Below, in pieces: positions 1,539-34,867 of a stretch of DNA of 64,000 bases. The stretch is from Bacteriovoracaceae bacterium. GTDB lineage: Bacteria > Bdellovibrionota > Bacteriovoracia > Bacteriovoracales > Bacteriovoracaceae. Each line of letters opens with the position of its first letter. Position 1 is the stretch's first letter. The notes beneath the pieces were generated by a model. The model ran no database searches and was not told the origin of the DNA. It worked only from the letters and a program-made list of their open reading frames with translations. The translations under genes were made by a program, and so were the position numbers. The DNA lies in the NCBI GenBank assembly GCA_021737405.1, contig JAIPEG010000001.1, positions 62,001-126,000 on the forward strand, read 5' to 3'.

Positions 1539-2323
1539 TTAAATACCTTGACTGATTTTCTTATCGTCTCAATTCGATCCATTTCTAAATCAACAACATG
1601 TAGACCCACGCCTTCTTTAGCATCAAGAAGCACGTCACCCCAAGGATCGACGACAAGTGAGTGACCAAAGGTTTGAATTCTTTCGTTATGAAGGCCATAC
1701 TGAGCAGCTGCCACGACAAAGCACTGATTCTCAATGGCCCTTGCTCTTAAAAGCGTGTGCCAGTGGGCCTTTCCTGTTGGGACAGTGAAGGCCGAAGAAA
1801 AGGTTAAAATCTGGGCGCCCTCTCTTACATATTGTCGGGCCATCTCTGGATAGCGAAGATCAAAGCAAATCCCAAGCCCTACTTTAATCCCTCCTACTGC
1901 AATTAATTGAGGAATCTTTCCCGCAGTATAAATATCGGCTTCATCAATCGCTTTTCTCTGACCCTCTTTTTGAATATCACAACTAAAGAGATTGATTTTA
2001 TCGTAATGAGAAAGAGGGTTTCCTAAGGCATCAAAGTTATAAGCTCGATTGACCACTGAACCGTTTAAGTTAGTTGCGGCGGAGCCGCCGACTAAGCTTA
2101 TGCCAAAGTCTTTTGCAATCGCGCGAATATTTTCGTAGTGCTCATTATGTTCATCAACCAGATAGGGCGTAGGTTTTAACCCATTACTCATTGAATAAAA
2201 GCATTCCGGCAAAAAGAGCATCTTTGCCGCTTGATTGACCGCTTCTTCGGCATGAGAGCGGATGACCTTCAGGTTTTCTTGAAAGTCTTCCTTTGAGTTC
2301 ATCTGTAATACTGCAATTCTCAT
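1535..2323 (-). CDS. Carbon-nitrogen hydrolase, Nit1/Nit2-like amidase
   Basis: A 262-residue nitrilase-superfamily protein. The catalytic triad is visible: E40 in FLPECF, K109 in YDKINLF, and C153 in GICFDLRYPEMAR. The segment FTVPTGKAHWHTLLRARAIE and the following AAQYG, FGHS and DPWG motifs match the Nit1-like branch. Members of that branch hydrolyse deaminated glutathione or other omega-amides, a metabolite-repair role in the cytosol. It begins 12 bp after ugd and overlaps the kinase start by 4 bp (ATGA). Its place between a sugar-nucleotide enzyme and a kinase gives no clear functional hint. Family is secure; exact substrate is not. Confidence 0.9.
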   Translation of the reverse strand: MRIAVLQMNSKEDFQENLKVIRSHAEEAVNQAAKMLFLPECFYSMSNGLKPTPYLVDEHNEHYENIRAIAKDFGISLVGGSAATNLNGSVVNRAYNFDALGNPLSHYDKINLFSCDIQKEGQRKAIDEADIYTAGKIPQLIAVGGIKVGLGICFDLRYPEMARQYVREGAQILTFSSAFTVPTGKAHWHTLLRARAIENQCFVVAAAQYGLHNERIQTFGHSLVVDPWGDVLLDAKEGVGLHVVDLEMDRIETIRKSVKVFK

Positions 2324-2335
2324 GAAAGACCCTGT

Positions 2336-3661: not shown

Positions 3662-3728
3662 TTCCAAAATCCTTTAAAAATTTTCAATATATATTTATCT
3701 TAACGAATAACATTAACACTGGCATTAT

Positions 3729-3744
3729 AGTCTTTTAAAAGACT
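3729..3744. promoter_or_regulatory. 16-bp perfect palindrome, possible operator
   Basis: AGTCTTTTAAAAGACT reads identically on both strands. It sits in the 120-bp gap between divergent ugd and the flippase-like gene, where a regulator could control both. No T-run follows on either side, which argues against a terminator. No regulator gene is adjacent, so a role as an operator is inference. Confidence 0.4.
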
Positions 3745-3780
3745 CTCACCAACTCCGATTCTCAAACCAAGGAATGGAAT

Positions 3781-4785
3781 TTGCGCGATTCGCTAAAAAT
3801 GGTCCTAAAAGTCATCTTGGCCGTGGCCATTATTTCCTGGCTTTTAAAAAGCGGAAAACTCGACTTTTCCCTGATTAATAAGTCCTTTGAGATGGGTTAT
3901 GGCTGGTTATTGTGCCTGGCGTTTCTGATCACCCAAGATTGCCTCTCTGGCATTCGTTGGCGCTGGCTTTTAAAGGTCAATTCTCAAGCAAAATTTCCCT
4001 TTATCGATATGATCCGCGTTACTTGGATTGGTTTATTTTTCAATTCCTTTTTGCCAGGCGCCGTCACAGGTGACTTTATAAAACTTCTCTATATTCGCGA
4101 CCTTGATCCAAAAATGAGTAAAACCTACCTTGTTACTTCGGTATTAATGGATAGGATCCTAGGACTCATGGGGCTTCTCGTGATCCTAGGGATTTTTAGC
4201 ACGATTTTCTATGGTGAGATTGTCGGCCTCTCAGGCCAAATGGCCAACCTTGTTCACTTTAATTTATTACTTTTTGCAGGTGCGATTGTTTTCATAGGCT
4301 TTCTCTTTGCCCCGCGAAAATTGCAAGACAAGGTCCTAAAGCTCTCACAGCTTATCCCCGTTTTAGGAAATAAAATTCACAATACTTTAATGAGTGTATG
4401 GACCATTGGAGACAATAAAATTGTTCTCTTTAAATGCATTGCTCTCTCTATGTTTCTTCAGGCCATGAACTTTGGCGCGTTCTATCTTATCAGCTCACCT
4501 TTTTATGGAGCTGATATCCCTTTTAAGTATATCGTCACTTTAATTCCTATTGGCTTTATGGCCGTGGCCATTCCGATCTCTCCGGCAGGCCTTGGTGTAG
4601 GCCATGTGATTTTTGATAAACTCTTCTCTTTTGTTGGAATTGAAGGTGGTGCGAACTTCTTTAACCTTTATTTTGTAGCGATGGTCTTTATCAATTCTTT
4701 TGGATTCTTGCCGTATATCTTTGGAGGGCGCCAACACTCCCTTAAAGAAGCAGAGGCATTTGATGCTGTCACTGAGAAATTATAA
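3781..4785 (+). CDS. Flippase-like membrane protein (UPF0104 / LPG synthase TM region family)
   Basis: A 334-residue polytopic protein with about eight hydrophobic segments. Features of the family (formerly UPF0104, the membrane part of lysylphosphatidylglycerol synthases) include RWRWLL near residue 61, FFNSFLPGAVTGDFIK near 92, DRILGL near 124, and PISPAGLGVGHVIF near 263. Members flip or handle lipid substrates in the inner membrane; the cytosolic aminoacyl transferase domain of MprF is absent. The start is TTG, with AAGGA seven bases upstream; the nearby ATG at 3774 is out of frame. It is divergent from ugd, so a role with glycolipids or polysaccharide carriers is possible. The 3' end overlaps the convergent gene by 6 bp. 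Confidence 0.8.
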   Translation: MRDSLKMVLKVILAVAIISWLLKSGKLDFSLINKSFEMGYGWLLCLAFLITQDCLSGIRWRWLLKVNSQAKFPFIDMIRVTWIGLFFNSFLPGAVTGDFIKLLYIRDLDPKMSKTYLVTSVLMDRILGLMGLLVILGIFSTIFYGEIVGLSGQMANLVHFNLLLFAGAIVFIGFLFAPRKLQDKVLKLSQLIPVLGNKIHNTLMSVWTIGDNKIVLFKCIALSMFLQAMNFGAFYLISSPFYGADIPFKYIVTLIPIGFMAVAIPISPAGLGVGHVIFDKLFSFVGIEGGANFFNLYFVAMVFINSFGFLPYIFGGRQHSLKEAEAFDAVTEKL

Positions 4786-5424
4786 TTTAAGGCGATTATC
4801 AGGGAAAACAAAAATCTTACTTACATCAACGTGTCCATAGCGTTGCCACTTCGTTTTAAGTGCTTCCGTAAAAAAGAGAAAATCTAATTCTTGTTTTCTA
4901 TCATTTAGCTTTCTAACTTTCTTGGCCTCTTTTTTCATGGCCGAACGAGCTTCTTTAGGCATGATTCTCAACCCGTTATAAAGATAATTTTCTTCACGGT
5001 AGAGAGTTGTTCGTCCAATAAATAAATCTCCCTTAACCATTGAGGGAGCAGAGTGGGCCTTGGCCAACGTTATTTTTTCATCATGGAGAATGTCTTTTAA
5101 GAGATGTTGCCCTCTAAAAGAAGTTCCTAGATACTCAAATAAACTATGGTTTGTAAGATTAATCGATTCAGTAAGTTCAGCAAGGACTTCATGACCTTCA
5201 ATGTATTGCTGAAAGAAAGGCTTACCAGAACTATCTGGAAGATATTGAAGAACATACCAATCATTAAAAGAGGCCATACGAGATTCGTAATCCTCATCTT
5301 CTTCAAAGGCCTTTCCCGTTTTAAGGAAATAGTCTTCTTTCGCTTTTAAAAGCGTTTCATAGAATTCATTATTGGAATATTGAGTGAGCACTTTTTCTAA
5401 AAGGTAGCGCAGACTTTCGTGCAT
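4780..5424 (-). CDS. Conserved-looking cytoplasmic protein of unknown function, coupled to lepA
   Basis: A 214-residue protein I cannot assign. It is rich in charged residues and has no signal peptide or membrane segment. The N-terminal part looks helical (ESLRYLLEKVLTQYSNNEFYE), followed by FNDWYVLQYLP and SLFEYLGTSFRG motifs. A basic stretch near 165-182 (MKKEAKKVRKLNDRKQELD) could contact RNA. It starts immediately after the lepA stop codon (TAGATG), so it is almost surely translated from the same message. It is the last gene of the ktrB-ktrA-HAMP-lepA operon and ends against the convergent flippase-like gene. Confidence 0.7.
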   Translation of the reverse strand: MHESLRYLLEKVLTQYSNNEFYETLLKAKEDYFLKTGKAFEEDEDYESRMASFNDWYVLQYLPDSSGKPFFQQYIEGHEVLAELTESINLTNHSLFEYLGTSFRGQHLLKDILHDEKITLAKAHSAPSMVKGDLFIGRTTLYREENYLYNGLRIMPKEARSAMKKEAKKVRKLNDRKQELDFLFFTEALKTKWQRYGHVDVSKIFVFPDNRLKL

Positions 5425-7224
5425 CTAATCATCCACCTTCAGAACGGCCAAGAAGGCTTCTTGAGGAACCTCAACGGCCCCCACCATTTTCATGCGCTTC
5501 TTACCGGCCTTCTGCTTTTCTAGAAGTTTTCTTTTTCGAGAAATATCCCCTCCATAACATTTGGCGAGAACATTCTTACGAAGGGCCTTAACCGTTTCCC
5601 TAGCGACAATTTTAGCCCCAATGGCCGCTTGGATAGCGATATCAAATTGCTGGCGATTAATCAGTTTTTGAAGCTTTTGAGTTAAATGCCTTCCTTTAAA
5701 AAAGGCATTACTTCTGTGGCAAATAAGGGATAGAGCATCAACTTTATCACCATTTAAAAGAACATCGACTTTTACAAGATCAGCTTTCTCGTAGCCTTTG
5801 AACTCATAGTCCATAGAGGCATAGCCTTTACTCATTGACTTTAATTTATCGTAGAAATCAAAAACCATTTCACTTAAAGGAAGATCGTAGAATAATTGAA
5901 CTCGCTCTTCTGTAAGGTATTTCATATCCGTTTGACGGCCGCGTCTCTCTTCACAAAGCTTAATAATACTTCCCACAAATTCATTGGGAAGGTGAATCGA
6001 GAGGCCCACAACTGGTTCCTCAATGGACTCAACTTCTCCAATATCAGGCATTTCTGATGGGTTTGAAATAAGCTTAGTTGTTCCATTAATTAAATTCACT
6101 TCGTAACTCACAGAGGGAGCCGTCGAAATAAGAGAAAGATCAAACTCACGTTCTAATCTTTCCTGAATGATGTTCATGTGCAGAAGCCCTAAGAATCCAC
6201 ACCGAAAACCAAAACCTAAAGCAGCAGATGTTTCAGGGTCATAGGTAAAAGAAGAATCATTGAGAGCAAGTTTTTCAAGAGCATCTTTTAAATCTTCATA
6301 TTCATTAGACTCTACGGGGAAGATCCCACAGAAAACCATTGGTTTAATTTCTGTGTATCCAGGTAGAGCGGGAGTGTCTTTTCTATTGGCCATAACAACG
6401 GTATCGCCAATTTTTACATCGCGAATGGTTTTAATGCCGCAGATAAGCATTCCAACATCACCCGCAGAAAGTTCATCGAGTTCAGTATAAAAAGGCGCAT
6501 TAACACCCATATTCAAGACTTCGTATTCTCCGCCAGATCTTTTGAGGTGAATTCTTTGACGTTTTTTAAGGCGGCCATTGATAACCCTGACGAGCACAAC
6601 GACACCTCTATAGGGATCAAACCATGAGTCAAAAATTAGGGCTTGAAGATCGGCATCACGGTTTCCACCAGGAGCAGGAACTTTCTTAACAATTGTCTCA
6701 AGAAGGTCTTCGATCCCAATTCCAGACTTTGCTGAAACCATATCGGCATCCATTGCTTCAATGCCAATAATATCTTCAATTTCTGTTTTTACTTTTTCAG
6801 CATCGGCGTGAGGAAGATCAATTTTATTAAGTACTGGAATGATTTCTAATTCATTTTCCATGGCCATATAAACGTTGGCCAAGGTCTGCGCTTCTACTCC
6901 TTGGGAAGCATCCACTACCAAAAGAGCACCATCACAAGAAGCCAGTGATCGGCTTACTTCATAAGTAAAATCCACATGCCCTGGAGTATCAATTAAATTA
7001 AAATGATATTCGTTTCCATCTTTTGCAGTATATTTCAGACGAACTGTTTGCGCCTTAATGGTAATACCACGCTCTTTTTCTAGCTCCATATTATCAAGAA
7101 GTCGGTCTTTCTTCTCACGGGAAGTCACTGTCCCAGTGGCCTCAAGAAGACGATCGGCAAGAGTCGATTTTCCATGATCGATGTGAGCAATGATAGAAAA
7201 GTTTCGAATAAACTTTTGATCCAT
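5425..7224 (-). CDS. lepA: Elongation factor 4 (ribosome back-translocase GTPase)
   Basis: A translational GTPase that acts on stalled or mistranslocated ribosomes. The G domain shows AHIDHGKST (G1), the switch II motif [14 protein letters not shown] (G4), and SAKSG (G5). The 599-residue length and the LepA-specific C-terminal domain, with conserved [20 protein letters not shown] near 560-579, identify LepA rather than EF-G. It follows the HAMP/PAS membrane protein by 60 bp and abuts the downstream unknown gene. Nothing unusual is seen in the motifs. Confidence 0.97.
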
Positions 7225-7284
7225 TTAATGATCCAAAAAGGCATCGCTGTTACTAGGTCTGAGACCTGCCACAACGCAACAATG

Positions 7285-8523
7285 TTAGGTAAATACTTCT
7301 TTGGACAGTACCATAAGGTAGTAATCTAGGGAACTTTCTTTTCCACGAATCGGGATGACATTGGCGTAACCCACATAAATATATTCGGGCTCTTTCTCTT
7401 CAGGCCCTTCACCATTAGGCGCCTCAATAACCTCGCCTTCTACTAAATTTATTTCCTTGTCGGAATCTTTAGCGTCAAGCCGGCCATCTTCGTCTTCTTG
7501 ATGCTTAGCAAGAATTTTAATCTCATTATTTTCAATTTTTGAGCGTCTCTTCAAAGCCAATTCAAAAGTATCGATGATTGTTAAAGGAACAACCGTTTCG
7601 GCCATCTCTTTTCCAATAACATCCTCAGATTGAACCTGCAGCAAAGAGTAGGATTGATTATTCAAATAAATCAAAGAGCCACTGGCATTGGCCACCAAAA
7701 CAGGCCGCCTCACCAAGTTAGCTAGAGCATCAAATTTTCTATTTTCAACTGAAATTCTGTCAGCTCGCAGCTCTTCAAAGATTTTAAAGGAGTGAATCAT
7801 TTTATTCATCTCTCGAGCGATTTCCCCAATCTCATCATCTTGAGAGTAATAGATACTCACGTCAAAGTTACAATCTTGAAGCTCACGAATAGCGTCTTTA
7901 ATCTTCTTAAAAGGAAGAGCAATTTTGCCAGGAATCACTAGGGCTAAAATGATTGTGAAAAGAAAACCAATAATGAGGACAATCATCATATGTCTTTTGG
8001 TTTCACTGATAATTTTCTTTATTTTCTTATCTCTCTCTACGGTTTCAAAGTACTGAATATCTTGGAATTCAGAAAACGAATCGAGAATCTTATCCGAGAG
8101 TTCCCCAATAGTCGTCATCCCCATTCCGCCGCGATTAAAGAGGGCTCCCTTACTTAGGACAAGCTTAAGAGAATCAACATAGGAGAGCATTTGGCCCACA
8201 ACTTTCTTGGCGTCAGGGTTTTGATAAAGAGAATCAAGTGTATGAAGTTGAGAGGTAAAGCCTTCACAAAGATTAATAATTTTATCGACCTGCTGTGGAG
8301 TTGGTTTATTTGTCAAAATTCTTCTTTGATACTTTAGAAGAGATACGGCAGAGATTCTAATTTCATCAGTTAAAAGAGCAACTCGATTGGACTTAACCGT
8401 AATTGATTCAATATCTTTATTTAGATTATTCAGGTAATGAAAGACAATAAAAGTCAGCGCCAAAACCACGATGTTGGCGATGATAAAACTCCATGTGACT
8501 CGTCCGCGAAGGGAAAGATTCAC
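7285..8523 (-). CDS. Membrane HAMP-PAS protein without an output domain, in the potassium-uptake operon
   Basis: A 412-residue protein with two membrane segments, about residues 9-29 and 178-198. Between them is a helical periplasmic region. A HAMP-like linker follows (PGKIALPFKKIKDAIRELQD), then a coiled stretch and a PAS-like domain starting LANLVRRPVLVANASGSLIY near 265. An acidic insert of about 45 residues (near 345-390) interrupts the PAS. No histidine kinase, GGDEF or methyl-accepting module is present. The start is GTG with AGGAG five bases upstream, and it begins 8 bp after ktrA. It may sense membrane or redox state and act on the KtrAB channel by contact; that is inference. Confidence 0.75.
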   Translation of the reverse strand: MNLSLRGRVTWSFIIANIVVLALTFIVFHYLNNLNKDIESITVKSNRVALLTDEIRISAVSLLKYQRRILTNKPTPQQVDKIINLCEGFTSQLHTLDSLYQNPDAKKVVGQMLSYVDSLKLVLSKGALFNRGGMGMTTIGELSDKILDSFSEFQDIQYFETVERDKKIKKIISETKRHMMIVLIIGFLFTIILALVIPGKIALPFKKIKDAIRELQDCNFDVSIYYSQDDEIGEIAREMNKMIHSFKIFEELRADRISVENRKFDALANLVRRPVLVANASGSLIYLNNQSYSLLQVQSEDVIGKEMAETVVPLTIIDTFELALKRRSKIENNEIKILAKHQEDEDGRLDAKDSDKEINLVEGEVIEAPNGEGPEEKEPEYIYVGYANVIPIRGKESSLDYYLMVLSKEVFT

Positions 8524-8531
8524 GAATGCTC

Positions 8532-9224
8532 CTAATCAGTGAGCTCGGCAAAGAGCTTGTTAAAGTTTTTCTCACTTCCCACTAAAACCACGATATCATC
8601 GGCTTCAATAACATCCATAGGCATGGGACAATCATTTATTTCTGTTTTATAGGCGGCTTTTCCATCTTCTGCAATAAAAGGCACTTTCTTTTGAAGGGCC
8701 ACAATATTGAGTGAATAATTTTGACGAATCTTACTCTCAACAAGAGTCTTACCCTCAAACTTTTTTCCAAGCTTTAATTCAACAATAGAATAACCGGCAG
8801 CAAAGTTATAACGTTGTAAAACGTGAGGAGCAACAATCTTGGAAGCAATAATCTCCCCCATCTCATCTTCAACTTTAATAATTTCAGAGGCACCAATTTC
8901 ATGAAGAACGTGCTCATGAATAACAGAGGTTGCTCTTGCAATCACTCGCCCTACCCCAAGTTTACGAAGCATCGTCACGGCCATAATTGACTGTTCGATA
9001 TGATCACCAATAGCCACAACCGCCACGTCGACATCAGAAATATTTTGAGAACGCAGGGATCTCTCATCAGTTACATCTAAGTTTACGGCGTGAGTGACGC
9101 GATCCTTGATTTTATCAACGAGAGTGCCATCCTTGTCGATCGCAATGACCTCAGCGCCTTTTTCGTAGAGACGAATAGCTGTTTTGGCACCAAATGTTCC
9201 TAGACCAATCACGGCGACAATCAT
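8532..9224 (-). CDS. ktrA: Potassium uptake regulatory subunit, single-RCK type
   Basis: A 230-residue cytosolic RCK protein that gates the KtrB/TrkH translocator by nucleotide binding. The N-terminal Rossmann domain starts VIGLGTFGAKTAIRLYE, with acidic ribose ligand D31 in IAIDKDG. The C-terminal RCK_C domain covers about 140-228. It has one RCK unit, as in KtrA, whereas E. coli TrkA has two. An AAGGAAG ribosome site precedes the ATG. It lies between ktrB and the HAMP/PAS gene, all in the same direction. Confidence 0.92.
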   Translation of the reverse strand: MIVAVIGLGTFGAKTAIRLYEKGAEVIAIDKDGTLVDKIKDRVTHAVNLDVTDERSLRSQNISDVDVAVVAIGDHIEQSIMAVTMLRKLGVGRVIARATSVIHEHVLHEIGASEIIKVEDEMGEIIASKIVAPHVLQRYNFAAGYSIVELKLGKKFEGKTLVESKIRQNYSLNIVALQKKVPFIAEDGKAAYKTEINDCPMPMDVIEADDIVVLVGSEKNFNKLFAELTD

Positions 9225-9317
9225 GGAATCTTCCTTACAAAACTTAGTATTATTAAGTAATTATACAAGAATTTATTAAGAGTTGAGGCGTATATGGCAC
9301 AAAATGCCGCTAAAATA

Positions 9318-11051
9318 TTAACCAATCATTATCCTGCCATCTGGATATTCAAATGAGCCCTTTGAGGAATCTTGTTGCCCGATAGCAAGGATCAAAGTCA
9401 AAGGTCCTATTCGCCCGGAGAACATCAGCATGGAGACACAGAGTTTTCCAGCAGCAGAGAGAAAAGGTGTAATGCCCAAGGAAAGTCCTACAGTACCTGA
9501 GGCCGAAATCACCTCAAAGAAAATTCCCAAGAAACTTTGATTGGGTTCAAAGCGCATAAGAACCAAAATAAAGAAGCTCGTAATAAGTATGGATATAAAC
9601 ATCAGAGCCGTTGCCCTAACGACAATAGGACCGGGAATTGTTCGGTCAAAAATAGTCACACTCTTATGCCCCTTAAGTGTCGAAGTGATCGACTGCACCA
9701 AGATGGCCAAGGAAGTTGTTTTCACCCCACCAGCAGTTGACCCAGGAGAGCCACCAATAAACATAAAAAGGGTCATGGCATAAAGGGTATAAGTGTGAAG
9801 ATTTGTAAGAGGGACAGAGTTAAACCCAGCCGTCCTTAAAGTAACGGATTGAAAAAGTGAGACCTGAATTTTCTCCCACAAGGTATAACTATCAAAGGCA
9901 TGCAAGAATTCACCAAAGAAGATAAAGACTGTGCCCACCACAGTTAAAATAAAAGAAGTGGTTAAAACAACCTTCGTGTGAACCCCAAGTCTGACAAACT
10001 TCTTACCCGTACTAATAACGTCTTTAAGTTCTTTTAGGGCCACAAATCCAAGTCCCCCCAAAGTAATTAACATCATGATCGTGCCACAAATCAGGGGATT
10101 CGTGGCATAGGACTCAAGCGAGGTCTCAAAGAGAGAAAATCCCGCATTACAAAAAGCGGAGATCGAATGGAAGAATCCATAGTAAAGAGCAGTACCGAAT
10201 TCAAAGCCCTCAAAGGTGAAGGCAATCGTTAAAACAATCGCACCCCAAAGCTCAATGAGAAAAGTATATTTAACGATATCAACGATCATCTCAAAAAGTT
10301 CTTCAAGGCTAGAAACATCGAGAAGATCTTGCATAATCATGCGGTCTTTCATTCCAAGAGAGCGCCCCAGAAGAATCGTCATCGAGGAATAGAGAGTCAT
10401 AATGGAGAGACCACCGATTTGAATCAATACTAAAATCACAATTTGACCAAAGAGCGTAAAGTCCGTCGCCAATGACTTTGTGCCAAGACCCGTCACACAG
10501 GTTGCAGAAGTCGACATAAAGAGAGCGTCCACAAAGCCCATTGATTCACCCGTTACACTTGAAAAAGGCAGCATCAAGAAAAAGGTTCCAAATAAAATCA
10601 CGGCCGAAAAGGAGAGCAAAACTAATTGAGCAGGCTTAAGCCTTAGGGCAGAGAAAATCCCCTCTTTGAGTTTATCAACCTCTAAAGAATCTTTTGAATT
10701 TCCTTCATCGTCATAGAGAGAAAGAACAGAACTTAAAAGGTGAGCCGAGGCCAACCACCAGGCGAAGAGCTCATCTCCCCAAGTAATTAGAAGAGGAATA
10801 AAAACCGTGAGAGAAAAAATGTGGCGCCTAAAAAAAGACTCCATACTTTTTAAACTCAAAAACTGAACAATGATGGTAAATAAAATCACGACAGGAACGG
10901 CATATGTTCCCCAGGAGATCACTTTCGTGACCGCAGATAAATTCCAGCTCACTGGAAGCCTTTCCATTGACCTGAGTGAGTAGAGCAGGATAAACGTCCC
11001 GTTTAGGAACAACTCCAATAAAAATGGCAACTTCTGCCATAAAGGTTTCAT
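9318..11051 (-). CDS. ktrB: Potassium transporter, TrkH/KtrB family
   Basis: A 577-residue ion translocator of the Trk/Ktr/HKT superfamily in the inner membrane. The four selectivity-filter loops are visible: ATCVTGLGT, FCNAGFSLF, LRTAGFNSV, and ASGTVGLSLG. The N-terminal about 130 residues add extra membrane segments and an acidic linker (DDEGNSKDSLEVDKLKEG) before the first filter loop. That makes it longer than typical KtrB of about 450 residues. With the single-RCK ktrA next door this is a KtrAB-type system. A 93-bp gap separates it from ktrA. It heads a five-gene minus-strand operon and is divergent from the RNA methyltransferase. Confidence 0.93.
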   Translation of the reverse strand: MKPLWQKLPFLLELFLNGTFILLYSLRSMERLPVSWNLSAVTKVISWGTYAVPVVILFTIIVQFLSLKSMESFFRRHIFSLTVFIPLLITWGDELFAWWLASAHLLSSVLSLYDDEGNSKDSLEVDKLKEGIFSALRLKPAQLVLLSFSAVILFGTFFLMLPFSSVTGESMGFVDALFMSTSATCVTGLGTKSLATDFTLFGQIVILVLIQIGGLSIMTLYSSMTILLGRSLGMKDRMIMQDLLDVSSLEELFEMIVDIVKYTFLIELWGAIVLTIAFTFEGFEFGTALYYGFFHSISAFCNAGFSLFETSLESYATNPLICGTIMMLITLGGLGFVALKELKDVISTGKKFVRLGVHTKVVLTTSFILTVVGTVFIFFGEFLHAFDSYTLWEKIQVSLFQSVTLRTAGFNSVPLTNLHTYTLYAMTLFMFIGGSPGSTAGGVKTTSLAILVQSITSTLKGHKSVTIFDRTIPGPIVVRATALMFISILITSFFILVLMRFEPNQSFLGIFFEVISASGTVGLSLGITPFLSAAGKLCVSMLMFSGRIGPLTLILAIGQQDSSKGSFEYPDGRIMIG

Positions 11052-11165
11052 TCTCTTATCTTAAACCAAATAAGATCAAGGCCTCACAATACTTATCAGG
11101 GAGAAAAAAATTCACCCTTTTACTTATAAGAAGCTTTTGTCGGAGTCTTTCTGTAGGAAATAGAA

Positions 11166-12305
11166 ATGGATAACCTCATACCTTTTGAAATAATTAGAAT
11201 TGACCCAATGGGTCAGGGCGTCTCTCTTCTCCAAGATAAAGTTACCTTTATCCCAAAAGCTATACCTGGAGATAAGGGCCTGGCCGAAGTCATCGAGACA
11301 AAAGGCAAGAAGGTTCAATTTGCTAAAATTCAAAAAATAACAGAACCCTCTGAGTTACGCATTGAAAGTAGCTGCCCACACTATAGTGAATGTCAGGGGT
11401 GTAGCTTTCTTAATATGAGCTATGAATTAGAGGGCCAGTCTAAATTAGCGGCCTATAGTTTTTTGTTTAAGGACTTAGTCGCAACAAAGGATATCGACTA
11501 CCAAGCGGCTAAAGAGAGATTTAACTACCGAAATAGAATTCAACTCTCATACGACTTACTTGATAGCTCCATTGGTCTTAAGACTCGTCTAGGAATCCTT
11601 GAGATTCCACACTGTAAAATCCCCAAGACGCCCATTCAGGAAGAACTTCAAAAAATTTATGCGGATGAAAATTATTGGCAACAACTTTTACCAAAGAACG
11701 CACCTGAAGAAGGGCATATTGAGCTCTATCTTATCAATGATCAATTAAAGGTAACTGCTAACAAACCATACTCTGAAGGTGGATTCAGCCAAGTTCATCA
11801 AGAGATGGCGGATTTTGCCAAAGCTCAAATATCCTCTTATTTAGAGACAGAATCCCCAACTATCGCGACGGTTGAGCTCTTTGGCGGCAAGGGCTACCTC
11901 TCAGACGAGCACCAGGGGCCTCGCTTAATTTGCGATCAAGGTCTAGATATTCAGGACATCGGTAAGACGAAGTTCTTGGACATGAATCTCTTTGATAAAT
12001 TCGCCCCGGAAAAAGTTAATAAGGCGTTAGGTAAATTAGAGTCTGTGCACGGCCCAGAGAGCTGGCAGATGATTATTGATCCACCAAGAAGTGGCCTAAA
12101 AAATATTAAAAAGTTTTTTACTCAAGAATATATGGCCAAGAAAGTGACCACTATCGCCTATCTTTCATGCAATCCTCAGACGCAAATTAGGGATGTCTCA
12201 AATCTTTTAGAAACTAAGAAGTGGGCCATTAAGAAAGTGAGCTTTTTTGACTTCTTCCCCGCTACGCACCATTTAGAATCTCTCGTTATCCTAGAGCGCC
12301 TTTAA
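11166..12305 (+). CDS. RNA (uracil-5-)-methyltransferase family protein with 4Fe-4S motif
   Basis: A 379-residue member of the TrmA/RumA superfamily, which methylates C5 of uridine in rRNA or tRNA. The N-terminal part resembles a TRAM domain (RIDPMGQGVSLLQDKVTFIP). An iron-sulfur cluster is suggested by C-x5-C-x2-C (SCPHYSECQGC) and a later PHCKIP cysteine. The SAM-binding site reads VELFGGKGYLS where the family usually has DLYCGxG. DPPRSGL and the catalytic cysteine in YLSCNP are intact. It is somewhat shorter than E. coli RlmD (about 430). An AGGA site precedes the ATG. The exact target (23S U747, U1939 or tRNA) cannot be read from sequence. Confidence 0.88.
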   Translation: MDNLIPFEIIRIDPMGQGVSLLQDKVTFIPKAIPGDKGLAEVIETKGKKVQFAKIQKITEPSELRIESSCPHYSECQGCSFLNMSYELEGQSKLAAYSFLFKDLVATKDIDYQAAKERFNYRNRIQLSYDLLDSSIGLKTRLGILEIPHCKIPKTPIQEELQKIYADENYWQQLLPKNAPEEGHIELYLINDQLKVTANKPYSEGGFSQVHQEMADFAKAQISSYLETESPTIATVELFGGKGYLSDEHQGPRLICDQGLDIQDIGKTKFLDMNLFDKFAPEKVNKALGKLESVHGPESWQMIIDPPRSGLKNIKKFFTQEYMAKKVTTIAYLSCNPQTQIRDVSNLLETKKWAIKKVSFFDFFPATHHLESLVILERL

Positions 12306-13355: not shown

Positions 13356-14798
13356 ATGGCAAAGAAAAAAAGAAATAGCCGAAAGAAACATAACGACGTC
13401 GATCATGACAACAACTCTCATGATTTCTTGGCAGATCTTCCTGAAAAAGATGCCGAAGAATGGAGCGGTGAAAAAGAATCTTTTTCACACGAGGGTGGAG
13501 AAAACAATATGCAAAATTCAGACATAGTCGATCCCTATTCAGAACGACTTGAAGAGAAATCAACTAGCACTGAGACTCCGATGTCCCATGAAGATAGCAC
13601 TCCTCAAGAAGACTACATCCCCTCTAAAGAGCAAGGAGAGCAAAGGGCCAGCAGTTTTAGCCTAGGCGCATTTCTCCATTCTGAACGGGAAAGACTTGGG
13701 ATCTCTCTAAAGAACGTAAGCCAATCAACAAAGATTAACTTAACGAATTTGGAATATCTTGAAGCTGATGATCTTAACTCTCTACCAGATCGCGCCTATG
13801 TTATTGGCTACGTTAAAAGCTATGCCAAGCTTTTAGGAATTAATGTTAACTTATGCCTCAATCTTTTAGATAAGACTTATGCTAATGCTGGAAGTAATCA
13901 TCGCGAGCCAGAAATCGTTATCCCTCAAGCTCAAAACTCACCGCAAATGGCCAACAGTTTTCCTGTTGCGAAAATAGCCTCCATTGCTGCCATGATTATC
14001 ATCATTGTTGGAGTTGTCGGATTCTTTCTGACAAGAAACTCTAACAAGAGTGTTCAGGTTGAAGAGGAAGTAAAAGAGCAAGAGATTATCGAAAACAAAG
14101 AAATTACTCCTCAAACTCTTAATGCTGAGACCCCTCTTCAAGAAGATCTTCCCATTCAAGATGACAGCGAAGAAATAGACACTGAACTTTCACAAGTGAG
14201 CGAAGAAGTTACACCTGTCGCTGTTGCTACCAAAGCGCCAGTTGTAGAAAAGAAAGTTGAAGTTAAGAAAGAAGAAGTAGTAGAAGAAGTAAAAGAAGAA
14301 GTCGTTGCTGAAAAGAAAGAAGTTGTAGAAGTAAAAAAAGAAACAGCGGTAGAAGAGAAAGAAAACCGAAAGTTTTATCCGCTAACTTCTGATCTCTACA
14401 CCTTTGATACGAGTATGTCGTCAGAGAAGATTGATGAGTTTCTTCCAAGTGACTTTAAAGTGAGTCCCGTTGATGGTATTCAGGCCGTCTTTATCACAGC
14501 AGTAAAGTCTGATTCATGGCTCACCTATAAAAGTGATGATGACCCTATTAAGAAATTTGTTCTTAAAAAAGGCCGCTCACTTCTTTTTAGAGCAAAAGAA
14601 GCACGCGTATTTCTTGGTAACTTAGGCGCCGTAAAAATATTCTTAAATAATCGCCCACTTATTGTGACTTCAAGAACGGGTGTTAAGAGTTTGGTCTTTC
14701 CCCAAGAGAATGCAAATAAATATGTCATGCCTCTTTTTATCTATAAAGAAGATGGCTCAGTACAAACGTCAAAAGAGTGGATTGAAGAGAATCAGTAA
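13356..14798 (+). CDS. RodZ-like protein: cytosolic HTH, one membrane segment, periplasmic DUF4115-like domain
   Basis: A 480-residue type II membrane protein. Residues 1-100 are a charged disordered leader. An Xre/HTH_25 domain covers about 103-172 (LGAFLHSERERLGISLKNVS). A single membrane segment lies at about 206-226. A Lys/Glu/Val-rich linker follows to about 345, and a DUF4115-like beta domain ends the protein (WLTYKSDD, FRAKEARVFLGNLGAVKIF). RodZ proteins link MreB to the wall-elongation machinery. It is longer than E. coli RodZ (337) because of the leader and linker. It is translated with the TPR lipoprotein, whose stop is two bases upstream. The linker is low-complexity and has spurious antisense ORFs. 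Confidence 0.85.
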   Translation: MAKKKRNSRKKHNDVDHDNNSHDFLADLPEKDAEEWSGEKESFSHEGGENNMQNSDIVDPYSERLEEKSTSTETPMSHEDSTPQEDYIPSKEQGEQRASSFSLGAFLHSERERLGISLKNVSQSTKINLTNLEYLEADDLNSLPDRAYVIGYVKSYAKLLGINVNLCLNLLDKTYANAGSNHREPEIVIPQAQNSPQMANSFPVAKIASIAAMIIIIVGVVGFFLTRNSNKSVQVEEEVKEQEIIENKEITPQTLNAETPLQEDLPIQDDSEEIDTELSQVSEEVTPVAVATKAPVVEKKVEVKKEEVVEEVKEEVVAEKKEVVEVKKETAVEEKENRKFYPLTSDLYTFDTSMSSEKIDEFLPSDFKVSPVDGIQAVFITAVKSDSWLTYKSDDDPIKKFVLKKGRSLLFRAKEARVFLGNLGAVKIFLNNRPLIVTSRTGVKSLVFPQENANKYVMPLFIYKEDGSVQTSKEWIEENQ

Positions 14799-26171: not shown

Positions 26172-28163
26172 GTGATGAATTGGAATGCTCTTATCATTCT
26201 CCTATCCCTCATCGTGACCCAGTCTTGCACTTCTTGGACTCACGAATGGGATAGATCACCCGCCTCAAGAACCTTTGGTTCTTGTCAGGAAAACTTTCGC
26301 TTCTTAGCAAAGCTTACCAGCAATAACTCTCTCTCAAGCACCGTTGGCTTTGAGTTTGAAGGTGCTATCCCTGCTCAACTAACTTATCTAGACGTGGCAA
26401 AGAGAATAAAAGACAAGGCCCAAGAACTTTATCCTGAAAGAACGATTGAATTAGAAGAAGTTGAATACGATTATGGGTTGAGTGATTACAAAGTTCTCAT
26501 TATCGGTGATGAAGAAACACTTACTATCTCCGTTAAATCCGATATGAGTCTCAGCATAGAGGACAAAACGCTTAATGGAATAGAGATCACCTCACCCATT
26601 ATGAAGACTCAGAAAGACTATATGAATTTTCTCACCCTACTTGAAGACCTCAAGGAATTAAACTTAAAGGCACGCCAAGACGTCGGCGGTATTCATTTTC
26701 ATTATGGCCTCCCCCTTGATCGCACCTATGCCGACCTTGTTCCTCTTTATGAAGTCTTTGCTAAAGGCTATGAATCCCTTCTTAATTACTTCAAGGCCAA
26801 TCCTGGTAGGGGTTTTCAAAGTGTGGATAAGTTTGTTGAATCTTTTGACGAGCTTAAAAGAGTTGCCAAGAGTAATCCAGAGTTACCGATAAGAAACTAC
26901 AGCGTCTCTCAATTACACAATCGCTCAATTCTTCGCATTCTTCCTCCCCTTCATACTTGGGAGATAAGATTCTTTAACAGCACACTTGCCCCAGAAATTA
27001 ATGAATTTTACCGCGAGTTTAGTGATCGTCTCTATTCCATGTGGTTAAAGCGTGACCCGCGTCTTCAAGATTTTCTAAGAGAGAGAGAATCCATTGAGGC
27101 CAAAGATCTCCTAAGTCTTCTAGGCTTTGATACCTTAGAGACTGATCGACTGATGGCAAAACTCAGTGTTGAAGAAAGTGAGTTGGATCAGGCAAATCCA
27201 TTCGATCAAGAAGTTAAAGATTTTTGGCAAGGCCATGAGCTTCCAGACTCTATCAAGTCCCCATTATTTTATCGATTAATTCTCGATGACCCTCGTTTTA
27301 ATGAAATCCCAGAGTCCATTCAATTAGAGGCGCTTAGGCGAGCACGTGTCATTTCAAATAATTTTCCTGGACTAGAAGAGAAGATCAAATTATTTGAACT
27401 CTTTAAAAATTCTCAGGATTTTCCCTTAAACTTTAAATCCTTCATTCAGAGCTTAAATAAGGAAAATCTCCAATACCTTTATCAAGCCTTTCATTCGGCC
27501 CTAATAAGAGATGGAGAAGAGCTCGTTTCAAGGATCACGCATTTGGATGCATCTGATCAATTGATTTTTTTCCAAGGACTTCTAAGAGACTTCGTAAAGA
27601 CTTCCCAGTCTCGTGGTGTTTTAAAATCAGCTGATCTTAAAAAGAACTACCTCGCCCTCATGACTCACGCCAGTCAAAACTTTCAAAATGAAGAGATCCT
27701 CACTCCTTTATTAAAAGTCTTTCCCATTTTTCAAGGACTAAACTTCACTCCTGTTAAAGAGTTTGCGATCCTGGCCAATAACGCCGCTGATATAATTTTA
27801 AAGGCCCCTAAGAGAGAGTATGCCCACTTAGATTTTCTTTCATTTGTGAATCGAAACCAAATAGAGCTCAAGCAAGCGATTCCTCTAAGTAAGCTTTTAA
27901 AAGACCTACTCGAAGAAAAACCAAACTTTAATCTCTTCTATGAATTTTCGGATTTTATAAAAAACTCTAAAGAGAAGCTTTTAACGAGAGAAAATATTCT
28001 CTTTATCGCTGACTACGCTACAAAAATAATGCCCAGTCTAGATCGTATCAGAAGAGTCAACCTCATCATTCTCTTTAAGGACATCATTTCAAAAGCAGAA
28101 GGTGAAGTAGACCAATCAGTTCTTGAAGGTGTGCTTCAAAAGCTTAGGGACTTAAACGATTAA
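26172..28163 (+). CDS. Exported amidoligase-like lipoprotein
   Basis: A 663-residue protein with a signal peptide and a possible lipobox (IVTQSC, C19). Residues 55-285 match the Amidoligase_2 pattern of glutamine-synthetase-fold ligases: GFEFEG 59-64, SDMSL 123-127, NGIEITSP 135-142, GGIHFHYG 172-179, RSILRI 251-256, and WEIRFFNSTL 263-272. These correspond to the acidic metal ligands, His motif and Arg residues of the family, which joins a carboxylate to an amine using ATP. Residues 290-663 are a helical region I do not recognise. Export is odd because the periplasm lacks ATP. The start is GTG (26172) or the adjacent ATG. It may be a structural or binding derivative, or act on peptides by another route. 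Confidence 0.7.
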   Translation: MMNWNALIILLSLIVTQSCTSWTHEWDRSPASRTFGSCQENFRFLAKLTSNNSLSSTVGFEFEGAIPAQLTYLDVAKRIKDKAQELYPERTIELEEVEYDYGLSDYKVLIIGDEETLTISVKSDMSLSIEDKTLNGIEITSPIMKTQKDYMNFLTLLEDLKELNLKARQDVGGIHFHYGLPLDRTYADLVPLYEVFAKGYESLLNYFKANPGRGFQSVDKFVESFDELKRVAKSNPELPIRNYSVSQLHNRSILRILPPLHTWEIRFFNSTLAPEINEFYREFSDRLYSMWLKRDPRLQDFLRERESIEAKDLLSLLGFDTLETDRLMAKLSVEESELDQANPFDQEVKDFWQGHELPDSIKSPLFYRLILDDPRFNEIPESIQLEALRRARVISNNFPGLEEKIKLFELFKNSQDFPLNFKSFIQSLNKENLQYLYQAFHSALIRDGEELVSRITHLDASDQLIFFQGLLRDFVKTSQSRGVLKSADLKKNYLALMTHASQNFQNEEILTPLLKVFPIFQGLNFTPVKEFAILANNAADIILKAPKREYAHLDFLSFVNRNQIELKQAIPLSKLLKDLLEEKPNFNLFYEFSDFIKNSKEKLLTRENILFIADYATKIMPSLDRIRRVNLIILFKDIISKAEGEVDQSVLEGVLQKLRDLND

Positions 28164-29227: not shown

Positions 29228-30478
29228 TTAGAAACTGTAAACCATACCAACTCGTGCCATTAAACGATCAAGGTCAAGAGAGCCTTTTTCTGTACCAGCA
29301 GCATTAATTGTACCGTTGTTGCTACCTAAACCAATCAGGCCATCGATACGTACTTTTCCTAAATTCAAAGAAGCTCCGGCGCGTACATCAGTTGTATTAT
29401 CAAAAGTAACCTCTTTACCACTAGTATCTGTGCCAAACTCAGCATTAGCAAGACCACGGGCCAAAGCATTTAGAGAACTATAGTTATTATTCTCTCTATA
29501 TCCCCAAAGTTTTTGAGTAACACTACCTCTTAACGTCAACCATGAGTTTAAGTTATATTCATAGCCAACCATAAGTGGAATAAAAACATTTTTTGCTGAA
29601 GCTTTCGTGGCAAATTTCACCTCAATTTCCTTGTGACGATATTCGACAGAAGAGAAAAAGTTACCATTTCCAGCTTTCATCTGATGGCCATAGCCTAAAG
29701 CATAGGTAGTAAATCCACCTTCTACTGATGAAGGAGTAGTTGAAGTACTTTTTTGATCCCAATCAAACTTCTTTAAAAAACCGTAAGCTTTTCCATTTTC
29801 ATTAACATGATAACCGCCACCAACATGAAAGCCCAAACTTCCATCAAATTCATCAGAAACTGCGGAACTAACTCTTTCAACCTTTGTTCCCGTAGAAATA
29901 TTTAAAAGAGCATCCCATTTTTCATTTTTTAAACCAAACTTAACAGCATGGGCAGTATCCTTTCCTCTAGCAGTTGCAGTGTGATACTTATCACTTGCAT
30001 AAACAACAGAAGCACCCCAATTCGCGAAGCTAGCCTTCCCCCCAACAAAAGCCTCTATTTGGTTATCAGCCCCAGATAAAGCAGTCGTTTCTGCTCCAGT
30101 AGGTATGGCAGCAGAGGAAGTTCCTACAACTCTAAGCAATGAAGAGGTATTTGATTCATTTCCAACATAAATACCGTAAGTCATTTCACCAATTTTGCGG
30201 ATAACGCCACCTTTGGCCTTAGGAGCTTCATCGGCGTCTGTACGAGTTTGAGTATTGGCTCCAAGAATCTTACCTGAACCACCCAATTCAATAATAACCG
30301 AATCAGCATAATCATTTACGTTGGCAACGTTTAAAAATATATTTCGATCATCTTCAATAAAATAAGAACCTTCATTATCGGTTTCATCCATTCCTAAGGC
30401 TTTCAATCTAGCAACAGTAGCGCTTACAGAAACCATTGATGTGGCAAGTAATAATGCCATCAATCCCTTAAATCTCAT
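29228..30478 (-). CDS. Outer-membrane beta-barrel protein (paralogue 1)
   Basis: A 416-residue protein with an Ala-rich signal peptide (LLATSMVSVSATVA). Alternating hydrophobic strands follow, and the protein ends in VGMVYSF, the terminal Phe typical of BAM-inserted barrels. It shares with the downstream-numbered paralogue an N-terminal motif (ALGMDETDNEGSYFIEDDRN versus a similar DDTRNVF) and the C-terminal SLDLDRLM segment. This ALG...D.RN pattern occurs in outer-membrane proteins of several gram-negative groups. It has its own terminator, so it is probably a separate transcript. A TTGACG-N17-GACAAT promoter-like element lies at roughly 30515-30560. Substrate or pore function is unknown. 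Confidence 0.85.
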   Translation of the reverse strand: MRFKGLMALLLATSMVSVSATVARLKALGMDETDNEGSYFIEDDRNIFLNVANVNDYADSVIIELGGSGKILGANTQTRTDADEAPKAKGGVIRKIGEMTYGIYVGNESNTSSLLRVVGTSSAAIPTGAETTALSGADNQIEAFVGGKASFANWGASVVYASDKYHTATARGKDTAHAVKFGLKNEKWDALLNISTGTKVERVSSAVSDEFDGSLGFHVGGGYHVNENGKAYGFLKKFDWDQKSTSTTPSSVEGGFTTYALGYGHQMKAGNGNFFSSVEYRHKEIEVKFATKASAKNVFIPLMVGYEYNLNSWLTLRGSVTQKLWGYRENNNYSSLNALARGLANAEFGTDTSGKEVTFDNTTDVRAGASLNLGKVRIDGLIGLGSNNGTINAAGTEKGSLDLDRLMARVGMVYSF

Positions 30479-30638: not shown

Positions 30639-31826
30639 TTAGAACCAGTAGTGTACCGCAACTTGAGTCATTAAACGGTCAAGATCAAGAGCACCTGATT
30701 TTGTCCCTGACGCTGCACCAGTAGTACCGTTAGTACCGATTGTACCGTCAATCATTAACTTGCCAAAGTTAAGGGTTGCACCAGCGTTAACATTAGTAGT
30801 GTTATCTCTTGTTCCACTTAGCTCAGCAGCTGAACCAGCTTTAGTTTTCTGAGAATTAACAACTATGTTTTGACCAATAGATCCTCTAAGCGTCAACCAA
30901 GAAGTTGCATCTGTTTCAAATCCAACTGTAAGAGGAAGTTCAGAACGAGAAGCTTCTAAATTATTCGTTGCAGTTGTTCCGTCTTTGTCTTCTGCATCAG
31001 TCATTCTGAAACCAAAGTCAGTAAACATTCTTGAGGTAGAAGAAACTTCTTTTATATAACCCGCACCAATATTAAGCACTGTCTGATCAGTTGTGTTAGC
31101 AGCAGCAGTTGCATTTGTATATTTAGCACCTTGCTTTTTATAGTCAACATAGAACGTAAAATCCATCCAGTTATAACCAACACCAATGTTCATTGATCCA
31201 TCATCTTCAAATTTATCAGCGTTGTTATCACCAACTTTATGCTCATCATTAAGTACATAATTTACGTAAGCGTTTAGGTCACCCATAACCATACCTAAGC
31301 CGAGTTCAAGAGTAGATTGCTCTTTCTTTGAAGAACCAGCAACTTGTTCCTGACTACCATTAGCGTAGTGAAGACGACCACCCCACTCAACACCTGCATC
31401 TCCACCGAAGAAAAGATCTAGATCATTTGAGCGACCTTTAAAACCAGTCTCGCCAAAAACTGGACCAGTTGTAGTTCCAGCAAGTGAATCAGCATAACCA
31501 GCAAGAGCAGTATCGCCACCCTGATCAGTTATGTCAGAACCTAAGTATAAACCATAGTTAAAACTACCAGCGCTTCTAAAGAATCCACCTTCAGCTTTTG
31601 GAGTTGAAGCACCACCAGCGGCAGTTGCATCGCCCCATTCAGTTACTACATAGTTATTTGTTTTGTTGATACGAGCAGCGTTTCGGAAAACGTTACGAGT
31701 ATCATCGATGTAAAATGAACCGCGATCTTGATCTTGCCCAAGAGCATTCATTCTAGCTTTTGTAGCGTAAACACTACCTGTCGCAAGTGTCGCAATAGTT
31801 GCGAGTACAATTTGCTTTTTCATCAA
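30639..31826 (-). CDS. Outer-membrane beta-barrel protein (paralogue 2)
   Basis: A 395-residue protein with signal IVLATIATLATGSVYA. Its mature start (KARMNALGQDQDRGSFYIDD) is similar to its neighbour's. Strand-rich sequence with many Gly/Asn/Asp turns ends in VAVHYWF, giving a terminal Phe. The penultimate motif GALDLDRLMTQV is shared with paralogue 1. An AGGAGA site precedes the ATG. The AT-rich 170-bp upstream gap, a strong ribosome site and an own terminator suggest high expression, as expected for a major porin-like protein. That is inference. Tandem paralogues could give surface variation. Confidence 0.87.
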   Translation of the reverse strand: MMKKQIVLATIATLATGSVYATKARMNALGQDQDRGSFYIDDTRNVFRNAARINKTNNYVVTEWGDATAAGGASTPKAEGGFFRSAGSFNYGLYLGSDITDQGGDTALAGYADSLAGTTTGPVFGETGFKGRSNDLDLFFGGDAGVEWGGRLHYANGSQEQVAGSSKKEQSTLELGLGMVMGDLNAYVNYVLNDEHKVGDNNADKFEDDGSMNIGVGYNWMDFTFYVDYKKQGAKYTNATAAANTTDQTVLNIGAGYIKEVSSTSRMFTDFGFRMTDAEDKDGTTATNNLEASRSELPLTVGFETDATSWLTLRGSIGQNIVVNSQKTKAGSAAELSGTRDNTTNVNAGATLNFGKLMIDGTIGTNGTTGAASGTKSGALDLDRLMTQVAVHYWF

Positions 31827-33258: not shown

Positions 33259-34767
33259 TTACTTAACTGCTAGGGTGTCACCAGCACGAATTCTGCGATT
33301 TTTTAAGATGTGGTAATTTGAAACAATGAGCGTATCAAGACTTGTTCCCGTACGACGAGAAACAGTCCAAAGAGAATCGCCTTTTCTCACCTTATAGTAC
33401 TCTGAAGGCGAAGCAATTTTACGCCCTCGACTTAAGGCCCTTTTTATTCGCGTAGACCAGGCCCTTCTCAAACGAACAGTCTTTCTAGGTCTCTCATAAA
33501 GATCGGCATACATATTGTCTTTAATGTCTTGGCCTTCTTTAAAAGGAAGTAAAATTCTCTCGCCTCGATCTAAAGACTTTTGCTCTGTAACGTTATTGAG
33601 CCATGAGAGAACTTTGTTATCTTTAATTTTGAATTTACGAGCAACGTCCTTTAGATTGCTACGTCTTCCCTTCACTGTATAAGTCATAAAATCACTTGCA
33701 ACCAATCTCTCCGGACTACCAGAGCAACAACTTGCAAACTCTCTTTTCTTACCAACAGGAAGTCTCAACTGATAGTTTCCAACAGGAGGAGTAAACCATC
33801 GAAGGATTTCAGGATTTAGGCGCTGAAGTTCTTCAAATTCAACATTTAGTTCTTGGGCCACCTTAAAGAGATCGGTTGCCGGACCTACTTGAACTTCTTG
33901 AAAGTCTAGAGGCTCATGAAAGTCGATATCTTCAAAACCAAAGGTCTTTAAATTTTTTCCAATGATTGCGAGGGCCATAATTTTTGGAACATAATTCTTT
34001 GTTTCATGCTTTAGGTAACGCCCTTTACTGATGCGCCAAAAGTTTTCCGTCTTATAACGACGAATGGCGCGACTCATTTTACCTTCACCAGCATTATACG
34101 AAGCTGCAGCTAGCTCCCAAGAACCAAACTCATGAAAAAGTTTTGTCAAATAGCGTGAGGCCGCAATGGTAGCCTTTATAGGATCCCTTCTCTCATCAAC
34201 AAACCAATCGATTTGAAGACCAAAGCGTTTACCTGTGTAAGGCATGAATTGCCAAGGCCCAACTGCGCGCGCCCAAGACTTGGCCTTCGTTTGAAAACCA
34301 CTCTCAGCCATTGCAAGAAAAATCAAATCCCTTGGAAGACCATGCTCTTCTAAGATTTTACCAAGAATCGGTGCATAACGACCGGCCCTTGCACCGTAAC
34401 GCTCAAAAAAGCCGCGACCACGATTAAGAAAATAATCGATCCATTTTTTAACGGCCTTGTTATAAACAACGGGAATATCAAAGTAATAATTTTCTAACCC
34501 TAAATGTTCTGCGCCATAAAGAAAATAAGTTTTATTCGTGTGCTCATTTGGGTTTTCAATTGAAGCAGAACCAGCAATTGAAGAATTATCATTATTCTCT
34601 TCAGCCTCTCTAGCTGCAGCGATCGCCTTTTGTCTTAGCTCAGAGGAGACAACAATTTCCTCATTAGATTTTTCAGGGGCTTCACTCTTTTGCGCAGTTT
34701 GCTTGGTCGCACAAGAGCTAAGGATTAAGGAAAGGACGGCAATAATAACAATGGGTGAGTACTTCAC
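33259..34767 (-). CDS. MltD-type lytic transglycosylase lipoprotein with LysM domains
   Basis: A 502-residue lipoprotein (VLSLILSSC) that cleaves peptidoglycan glycan strands. The SLT domain has the catalytic Glu in AMAESGFQTKAKSWARAVGP, then WQFMPYTGKRFGL and AAASYNAGEGKMSRAI. LysM-type wall-binding segments follow: VGPATDLFKVAQELNVEFEE, MTYTVKGRRSNLKDVARKFK, and a final YKVRKGDSLWTVSRRTGTSL. The start is GTG at 34767, with AGGAG nine bases upstream. An upstream TTG or ATG-like extension to 34812 lacks that support and would disrupt the signal peptide. It probably acts at the outer membrane on the cell's own or a prey wall; which cannot be told. Confidence 0.92.
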   Translation of the reverse strand: MKYSPIVIIAVLSLILSSCATKQTAQKSEAPEKSNEEIVVSSELRQKAIAAAREAEENNDNSSIAGSASIENPNEHTNKTYFLYGAEHLGLENYYFDIPVVYNKAVKKWIDYFLNRGRGFFERYGARAGRYAPILGKILEEHGLPRDLIFLAMAESGFQTKAKSWARAVGPWQFMPYTGKRFGLQIDWFVDERRDPIKATIAASRYLTKLFHEFGSWELAAASYNAGEGKMSRAIRRYKTENFWRISKGRYLKHETKNYVPKIMALAIIGKNLKTFGFEDIDFHEPLDFQEVQVGPATDLFKVAQELNVEFEELQRLNPEILRWFTPPVGNYQLRLPVGKKREFASCCSGSPERLVASDFMTYTVKGRRSNLKDVARKFKIKDNKVLSWLNNVTEQKSLDRGERILLPFKEGQDIKDNMYADLYERPRKTVRLRRAWSTRIKRALSRGRKIASPSEYYKVRKGDSLWTVSRRTGTSLDTLIVSNYHILKNRRIRAGDTLAVK

Positions 34768-34867
34768 TAAATTAATCTCCTGATTAACCCAATTGACCAC
34801 AAAAAAACGCATACAATTGAGGAGTGTCTATCATCTCAACCACATGCGTCTGGGTCAACAATGCAAT

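Follow-up and report, generated by a model that had tools for sequence, protein, structure and literature searches.

A conserved Amidoligase_2 protein with a lipoprotein-type signal in a Bacteriovoracaceae bacterium, and its exported-looking relatives

The window (the whole stretch of 64,000 nucleotides of the Bacteriovoracaceae contig, phylum Bdellovibrionota, that was analyzed) contains a gene for a predicted exported Amidoligase_2 lipoprotein, with a start at a GTG (26172) or, more likely, at the in-frame ATG (26175) from which residues are numbered here (Table 1). Judged by sequence comparison, this open reading frame is a real, conserved gene: six further genomes from the genus were examined and two of them (G001 and G002) have orthologs, the G002 ortholog is 65% identical to the window protein, and the pair has dN/dS well below 1 (dN 0.254; dS 1.71, which is near saturation). 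Against the same ortholog, the amidoligase domain has a dN of 0.139, and the helical part behind it one of 0.313. A search of 98 genomes, the organism's own included, matched the window protein in six, although the weakest match (G080) is spurious, with two internal stops and a position opposite a 726-aa open reading frame. A first scan of genome contigs found no relatives; the other PF12224 protein of the organism's genome has 1002 aa and lies on a different contig.

Table 1. Positions of the window gene, its parts, its neighbors and selected related proteins (window coordinates, except in rows with an L number).
Feature	Position	Strand	Basis or remark
Window protein gene (predicted exported Amidoligase_2 lipoprotein)	26172-28163	+	ORF, 663 codons from GTG
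Lipoprotein-type signal, MNWNALIILLSLIVTQSC	26175..26228	+	Lipobox pattern passed; Cys18 probably lipid-bearing
Linker, ~38 residues, RSPAS...C motif	26229..26342	+	Low pLDDT at residues 14-54; motif in several lipoprotein relatives
RxP[AS]S motif	26247-26291		Also in relatives
Amidoligase_2 domain (predicted glutamine-synthetase-like), residues 57-291	26343..27047	+	PF12224, model, phage fold matches
Motif GFEFEG, residues 58-63	26346..26363	+	E60, E62 invariant in A7 and A8
Motif GIEITSP, residues 136-142	26580..26600	+	E137 invariant in A7 and A8
Motif GGIHFHYG, residues 171-178	26685..26708	+	H174, H176 invariant in A7 and A8
R212	26808..26810	+	Invariant in A7 and A8
Motif WEIRFFNSTL, residues 262-271	26958..26987	+	E263, R265 invariant in A7 and A8; N268 in A7
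All-helical C-terminal part, residues 292-662	27048..28160	+	Secondary structure of model
RodZ-like gene	13356-14798
Exported-looking protein, 306 aa	28160-29080	-	Contains SESVFGRENIGQGGRGPWGIHP
PopA-family outer-membrane protein	29228-30478	-	NF053618
PopA-family outer-membrane protein	30639-31826	-	NF053618
SLT+LysM transglycosylase	33259-34812		Pfam
L040, 'tandem' member, own genome (G000:C49)	6819-9827
L041, exported Amidoligase_2 + R2K-like	7924-11451
L139, exported Amidoligase_2 + R2K-like	841-3156
L142, exported Amidoligase_2 + R2K-like	1068-3347
L143, exported Amidoligase_2 + R2K-like	2820-5216
L146, exported Amidoligase_2 + R2K-like	2643-5102
L150, exported Amidoligase_2 + R2K-like	304-2649
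L147, helicase + Amidoligase_2	514-3075		No signal; helicase by Pfam
L016, helicase + Amidoligase_2	145-3006		No signal; helicase by N-terminal sequence, with a PF12224 match
L152, helicase + Amidoligase_2			No signal; helicase by N-terminal sequence (by eye), with a PF12224 match

The gene had been placed by an earlier note on this DNA in a region of wall-acting genes, and this description holds in part: there is one transglycosylase at a distance of 5 kb and a RodZ-like gene at 11 kb, whereas the nearer genes encode two successive PopA-family proteins, a GLUG-repeat protein (over the Pfam cut-off, with a similar neighbor below it) and a convergently transcribed 306-aa protein, the end of whose gene overlaps the 3' end of the window gene by 4 bases. 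This 306-aa protein has no Pfam, PHROGs or PDB support and no relevant match in these searches; by eye, its segment SESVFGRENIGQGGRGPWGIHP resembles a lysozyme-type active site. In G001 and G002, as read from N-terminal sequences, the gene order is the same: a transglycosylase-like lipoprotein, a 382-aa-type protein, two PopA-type proteins, the window-gene ortholog and a GLUG-type protein. A 306-aa-type gene also adjoins the ortholog in G002, while other genes flank it in G001.

The window protein begins with a hydrophobic core followed by the lipobox VTQSC, in agreement with the proposal that a lipoprotein signal precedes the domain. The lipobox passes a PROSITE-type pattern and its cysteine, Cys18, falls within the permitted range of 15-35, and we infer that the protein is lipidated at this residue. 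By the sorting rule for Escherichia coli lipoproteins, Thr after the Cys directs a protein to the outer membrane, which is therefore the probable location of the window protein. There is no K or R ahead of the hydrophobic core (n-region MNWNALI), which makes the window copy less convincing as a single case of export; the n-regions of the orthologs L042 and L043 contain such residues (MKVISF... and MKLHLLR...). Read by hand, the frame upstream of the window start includes E-K-K and lacks a standard start codon. The lipoboxes of relatives read LAPSC, LFTGC, LLSSC, LFSC, LIISC, IVSC and LFLGC, the first of which (from the G002 ortholog) fails the pattern, with Pro where the pattern forbids it. 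The motif RxP[AS]S, located 5-11 residues past the lipobox Cys, is common to the lipoprotein amidoligases and is also present in a further lipoprotein, in L045. It occurs in 7 of 34 lipoprotein-like open reading frames and 3 of 303 others. It was rejected as a general lipoprotein motif: six of the seven carriers are amidoligase proteins, so that the motif is mostly a family resemblance.

Membership of the window protein in the Amidoligase_2 family is solid. Pfam-A assigns PF12224 to residues 57-284; the score is 27.2 bits when the entire protein is scanned and 31.2 bits for the domain alone (cut-off 22), while the G002 ortholog, at 18.9 bits, scores below this cut-off. The four segments first singled out as amide-ligase motifs (GFEFEG, GIEITSP, GGIHFHYG and WEIRFFNSTL) are all present, and their conserved residues match the glutamine synthetase (GS) motifs GxExE (E129, E131), GMHxH (H269) and ExR (E357, R359). 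Conservation was assessed in an alignment of 17 exported-type proteins of the phylum, the window protein included (A7), and in the same alignment extended by three phage proteins annotated as amidoligases (A8). In A7, 13 columns are invariant (G58, E60, E62, E137, G172, H174, H176, F206, R212, T261, E263, R265 and N268), and 17/17 A7 members and 3/3 phage proteins retain the eight charged site residues from this set (E, E, E, H, H, R, E, R). PF12224 is matched by 16 of the 17 A7 members at E up to 0.01. L075, in which the first His of HxH is replaced (LQAHVG), was left out of A7 because the script found no motif in it, and alignments A2-A8 omit L041. For the window protein, no R2K domain was matched in Pfam at E up to 1, GCS2 is not among the three Pfam families found at that threshold, and there was no match in NCBIfam or, for two parts of the protein, in PHROGs.

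A domain-only AlphaFold2 model (m2f013b89700a; pLDDT 87.0, pTM 0.83) found predicted phage amidoligases as its best matches in a search of viral folds, the top one with E 4.3e-9 and TM-scores of 0.64 (query) and 0.49 (target). Among the best 50 PDB matches listed for this model there is no GS-fold chain, the sole listed match under 0.001 being YwmB (E 5.5e-4). With the full-length model, Foldseek placed YbdK (1r8g) first in the PDB (probability 1.00, E 2.1e-3, TM 0.21/0.36). Nothing relevant came from searching PDB sequences with the protein, the domain profile or an R2K profile, the domain profile matching weak, unrelated chains (best E 0.061). As to the GS-type fold proposed from the motifs, the model matches the predicted folds of phage amidoligases, and a solved GS-fold match is weak or missing; we assign this predicted fold mainly from family membership, with weak support from solved structures.

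Behind the domain, the expected helical part of about 370 residues is borne out in the model, in which the 371-residue C-terminal part (modeled residues 295-661) consists of helices only. The full-length model gives weak PDB matches to ARM, HEAT and Puf-type chains, and an exported relative, L157, matches HEAT_2 over the cut-off (39.4 bits), its own PF12224 score (21.3) being just below. As modeled, this part is probably an ARM/HEAT-like solenoid, for which holding a substrate or partner is a natural guess.

Export, as read from N-terminal sequences, is not peculiar to the window copy. Signals were scored with our own script, which looks for a hydrophobic segment free of charges and close to a start (11 residues for the 18 profile-found proteins described below, the phage proteins and nine of the 'tandem' proteins; 10 for the other sets). 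This test is permissive (23 of the 49 window open reading frames of at least 150 aa pass), so only the contrast between protein groups counts. A profile of the domain, searched in 368 genomes, found 18 places in 14 genomes, the window protein included; nine of these proteins had themselves built the profile. A signal-like segment is present in 17 of the 18, in 14 at the start used (for L047, an internal Met) and in three (L071, L074 and L081) only from later Met codons, with the segment of L074 placed some 50 residues from the N terminus, as in an anchor. The one that fails, L076, has a 9-residue LLLLLFFVL run visible by eye. In eight of the 18, again with the window protein, a Cys is by eye placed as in lipoproteins. 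PF12224 matches occur in 60 of the 368 genomes. Outside the 'tandem' family, 19 of the matching proteins had not been covered before; 16 of these pass the test, the others being two helicase fusions (L147 and L152) and L156. In contrast, none of 11 cytosolic-type PF12224 proteins passes (these are the 12 strongest PF12224 places by score, with E up to 5.3e-45, less a second G254 copy), nor does any of the three phage amidoligases. By eye, the HxH motif is missing from L011 and L013, which are cytosolic-type proteins from the phylum. The survey for exported members that the earlier note proposed finds signals in most proteins outside the cytosolic-type and helicase-fused groups, and family membership and export are both well supported. 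Beyond the phylum, the searches covered phages, plasmids and 14 control genomes; because this search was limited, we do not claim that exported members are restricted to the phylum.

A larger exported family, here termed 'tandem', occupies 61 places in 59 of the 368 genomes and consists mostly of proteins of 900 to 2100 aa (the ~1000-aa type). Its C-terminal domain is amidoligase-like (hhalign 94.6%, E 7.2e-8). A second, N-terminal GS-like domain was considered and rejected (hhalign 1.3%; A5 vs A6 0.2%), so one domain is claimed and the name is kept as a mere label. The N-terminal half is conserved, with the segments GAEKEASS, GGWEINF and VEFRAGTK. The export test is passed by 22 of 30 'tandem' proteins (16/21 and 6/9 in two sets), one of them, c166, at a later Met; of the eight that fail, seven seem by eye to be exported, and the last has no signal. 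The five failing proteins in the set of 21 comprise four that are signal-like by eye (in three of them a weak core precedes YNC) and the one without a signal; in the set of nine, all three have a weak core before a Cys. In some genomes, 'tandem' genes lie, by eye, near those of exported papain-type proteins; among eight such neighbors checked, L056 exceeds the Pfam cut-off (26.1 vs 20.7 bits) and L051 falls below it (17.5).

Further exported relatives join the domain to an R2K-like ATP-grasp region. L041, a 1176-aa protein of G002 with the signal MKLFNFKYLIPLILMISISC, scores 54.3 bits for Amidoligase_2 and 38.2 bits for R2K_3 (cut-off 26.3), and was the one protein with such a region among the first nine scanned; in a second set of nine exported proteins, five, each from a different genome, likewise have Amidoligase_2 followed by an R2K-like region. 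The R2K cut-offs are exceeded by two of the six (L041 and one of the five); the other four score lower. No R2K-like region was found in the exported, Pfam-scanned proteins L144, L149, L155 and L157. Aligned, the six share K60, E145/R147, D211 and E224/N226 (first-row numbering), and in their amidoligase domains QVNVE replaces HxH. By eye, L041 may contain a further ATP-grasp ahead of its amidoligase domain. As described in the available part of PMC4431377, the R2K clade has two conserved lysines and an ExR motif, with ExGD in R2K.3 instead of the standard ExN; the exported regions contain ExR and ExN, the latter differing from the ExGD of R2K.3. The same part of that source argues that R2K enzymes are peptide ligases in conflicts, some delivered as effectors, and names type VI and type IV secretion; in its main text, so far as available, the words 'periplasm', 'signal peptide' and 'Bdellovibrio' are absent. 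The exported R2K-like regions suggest, from their sequences, ATP chemistry outside the cytoplasm: it is difficult to account for an ATP-grasp in the absence of ATP, which makes these proteins the best hint of an intended external ATP-driven ligation. They support such chemistry for the window protein only indirectly, since they form a different branch (QVNVE), carry ExN and in four cases lie below the cut-offs.

Among known systems, the phage and cytosolic Amidoligase_2 proteins are the closest, being alike in a profile match over the cut-off and in predicted fold, with site residues shared with the three phage members; the window protein differs in being exported and in having a helical part after the domain. 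The amidoligase of phage Edmundo adjoins an amidotransferase gene, and none was found beside the window gene. Pfam describes the PF12224 family as putative. YbdK, a cytosolic carboxylate-amine ligase of the GCS2 type, is the first solved-structure match of the full-length model, but with low TM-scores, with no GCS2 match in Pfam and with no place among the best 50 matches of the domain-only model. Bdellovibrio, a predator from the same phylum, reportedly secretes L,D-transpeptidases that modify prey walls; these enzymes and the peptidase Bd3459 need no ATP and have folds other than that of amidoligases. Bd3459 is a PBP4-type peptidase that the predator exports and that remodels prey walls (PMC3276566, in part). 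The R2K ligases are proposed to act as peptide ligases against other cells (PMC4431377, in part), and the window protein differs from them in lacking an ATP-grasp. Our literature search found no description of exported Amidoligase_2 proteins, and the exported order of Amidoligase_2 and R2K-like region is not described in the available parts of PMC12239564, PMC12419801, PMC4431377, PMC3276566, PMC8938487, PMC6561027, PMC12228718 and PMC7529429. The window protein appears to be a member of a known family in an unusual, exported location.

ATP-dependent ligases are considered cytosolic, and a periplasm is not expected to contain free ATP, which makes the apparent export of an ATP-using amide ligase surprising. 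Export of two unrelated ATP-ligase folds would imply an external ATP pool (plausibly that of breached prey) or new chemistry for such folds. The reading that we tentatively prefer, at somewhat less than an even chance, is a surface or periplasmic amide or isopeptide ligase using ATP that arrives from prey. The protein would be held outside the cytoplasm by its lipid anchor, probably in the outer membrane, with a flexible linker carrying the predicted catalytic, GS-like domain; the substrate would probably be presented by the helical solenoid that follows this domain. With Mg-ATP the enzyme would make an acyl-phosphate intermediate and from it form the amide or isopeptide bond. The ATP would come from prey whose inner membrane has been breached by the putative predator; if small molecules leak through, prey ATP would become available to an enzyme located on the surface of the predator. 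In its available part, the PopA paper (PMC12228718) cites reports of a predator outer-membrane protein transferred into the prey inner membrane, and states that the prey proton motive force is lost very early. Candidate targets are the prey envelope, prey proteins and the predator's own surface, where a lipid-anchored ligase might amidate wall peptides, crosslink them or attach tags to proteins; that the target is the wall or a peptide, as the earlier note also suggested, is a guess. The gene, its domain, the conserved site and the export signals of relatives are observed, and we infer the activity, the use and source of ATP, the target and the predatory habit of the organism. A wider proposal, less likely than not, is that the phylum, to which well-known predators belong, exports a whole arsenal of ATP-dependent peptide or amide ligases (Amidoligase_2 lipoproteins, Amidoligase_2 + R2K-like proteins and the larger family) that would draw, outside the cytoplasm of the exporting cell, on prey ATP to form new amide bonds in the envelope of prey or predator.

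The absence of ATP from a periplasm would be accommodated by an exported GS-fold enzyme that works without it, through another activated donor or by amide transfer or hydrolysis (e.g., on peptidoglycan peptides). The conserved site residues, the transglycosylase and other envelope genes nearby and the larger exported family near papain-type genes in places are all consistent with such an enzyme, which we nevertheless consider unlikely, given that the conserved residues are those of phage proteins annotated as amidoligases and that other exported proteins add an ATP-grasp-like region. The same lack of external ATP would suit a dead enzyme domain serving as an exported binding protein (an adhesin or receptor to which peptides, polyamines or fragments of the wall would bind, the solenoid acting as its scaffold), and the faster evolution seen in the helical part than in the domain might be that of an interaction surface; eight charged site residues kept in 17 divergent proteins would be unusual for a dead enzyme, however, with one His lost only in L075, outside A7, and this explanation is improbable. 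An N-terminal segment acting as an inner-membrane anchor for a cytosol-facing enzyme, or a window copy that is not exported at all, is very improbable: it would fit the missing K/R before the hydrophobic core and the anchor-like segment of L074, but relatives have ordinary-looking lipoprotein or Sec signals and a cytosol-facing anchor has no need of a lipobox Cys.

The fusions of a helicase to Amidoligase_2, which have no signal, possibly belong to a defense or phage-related system.
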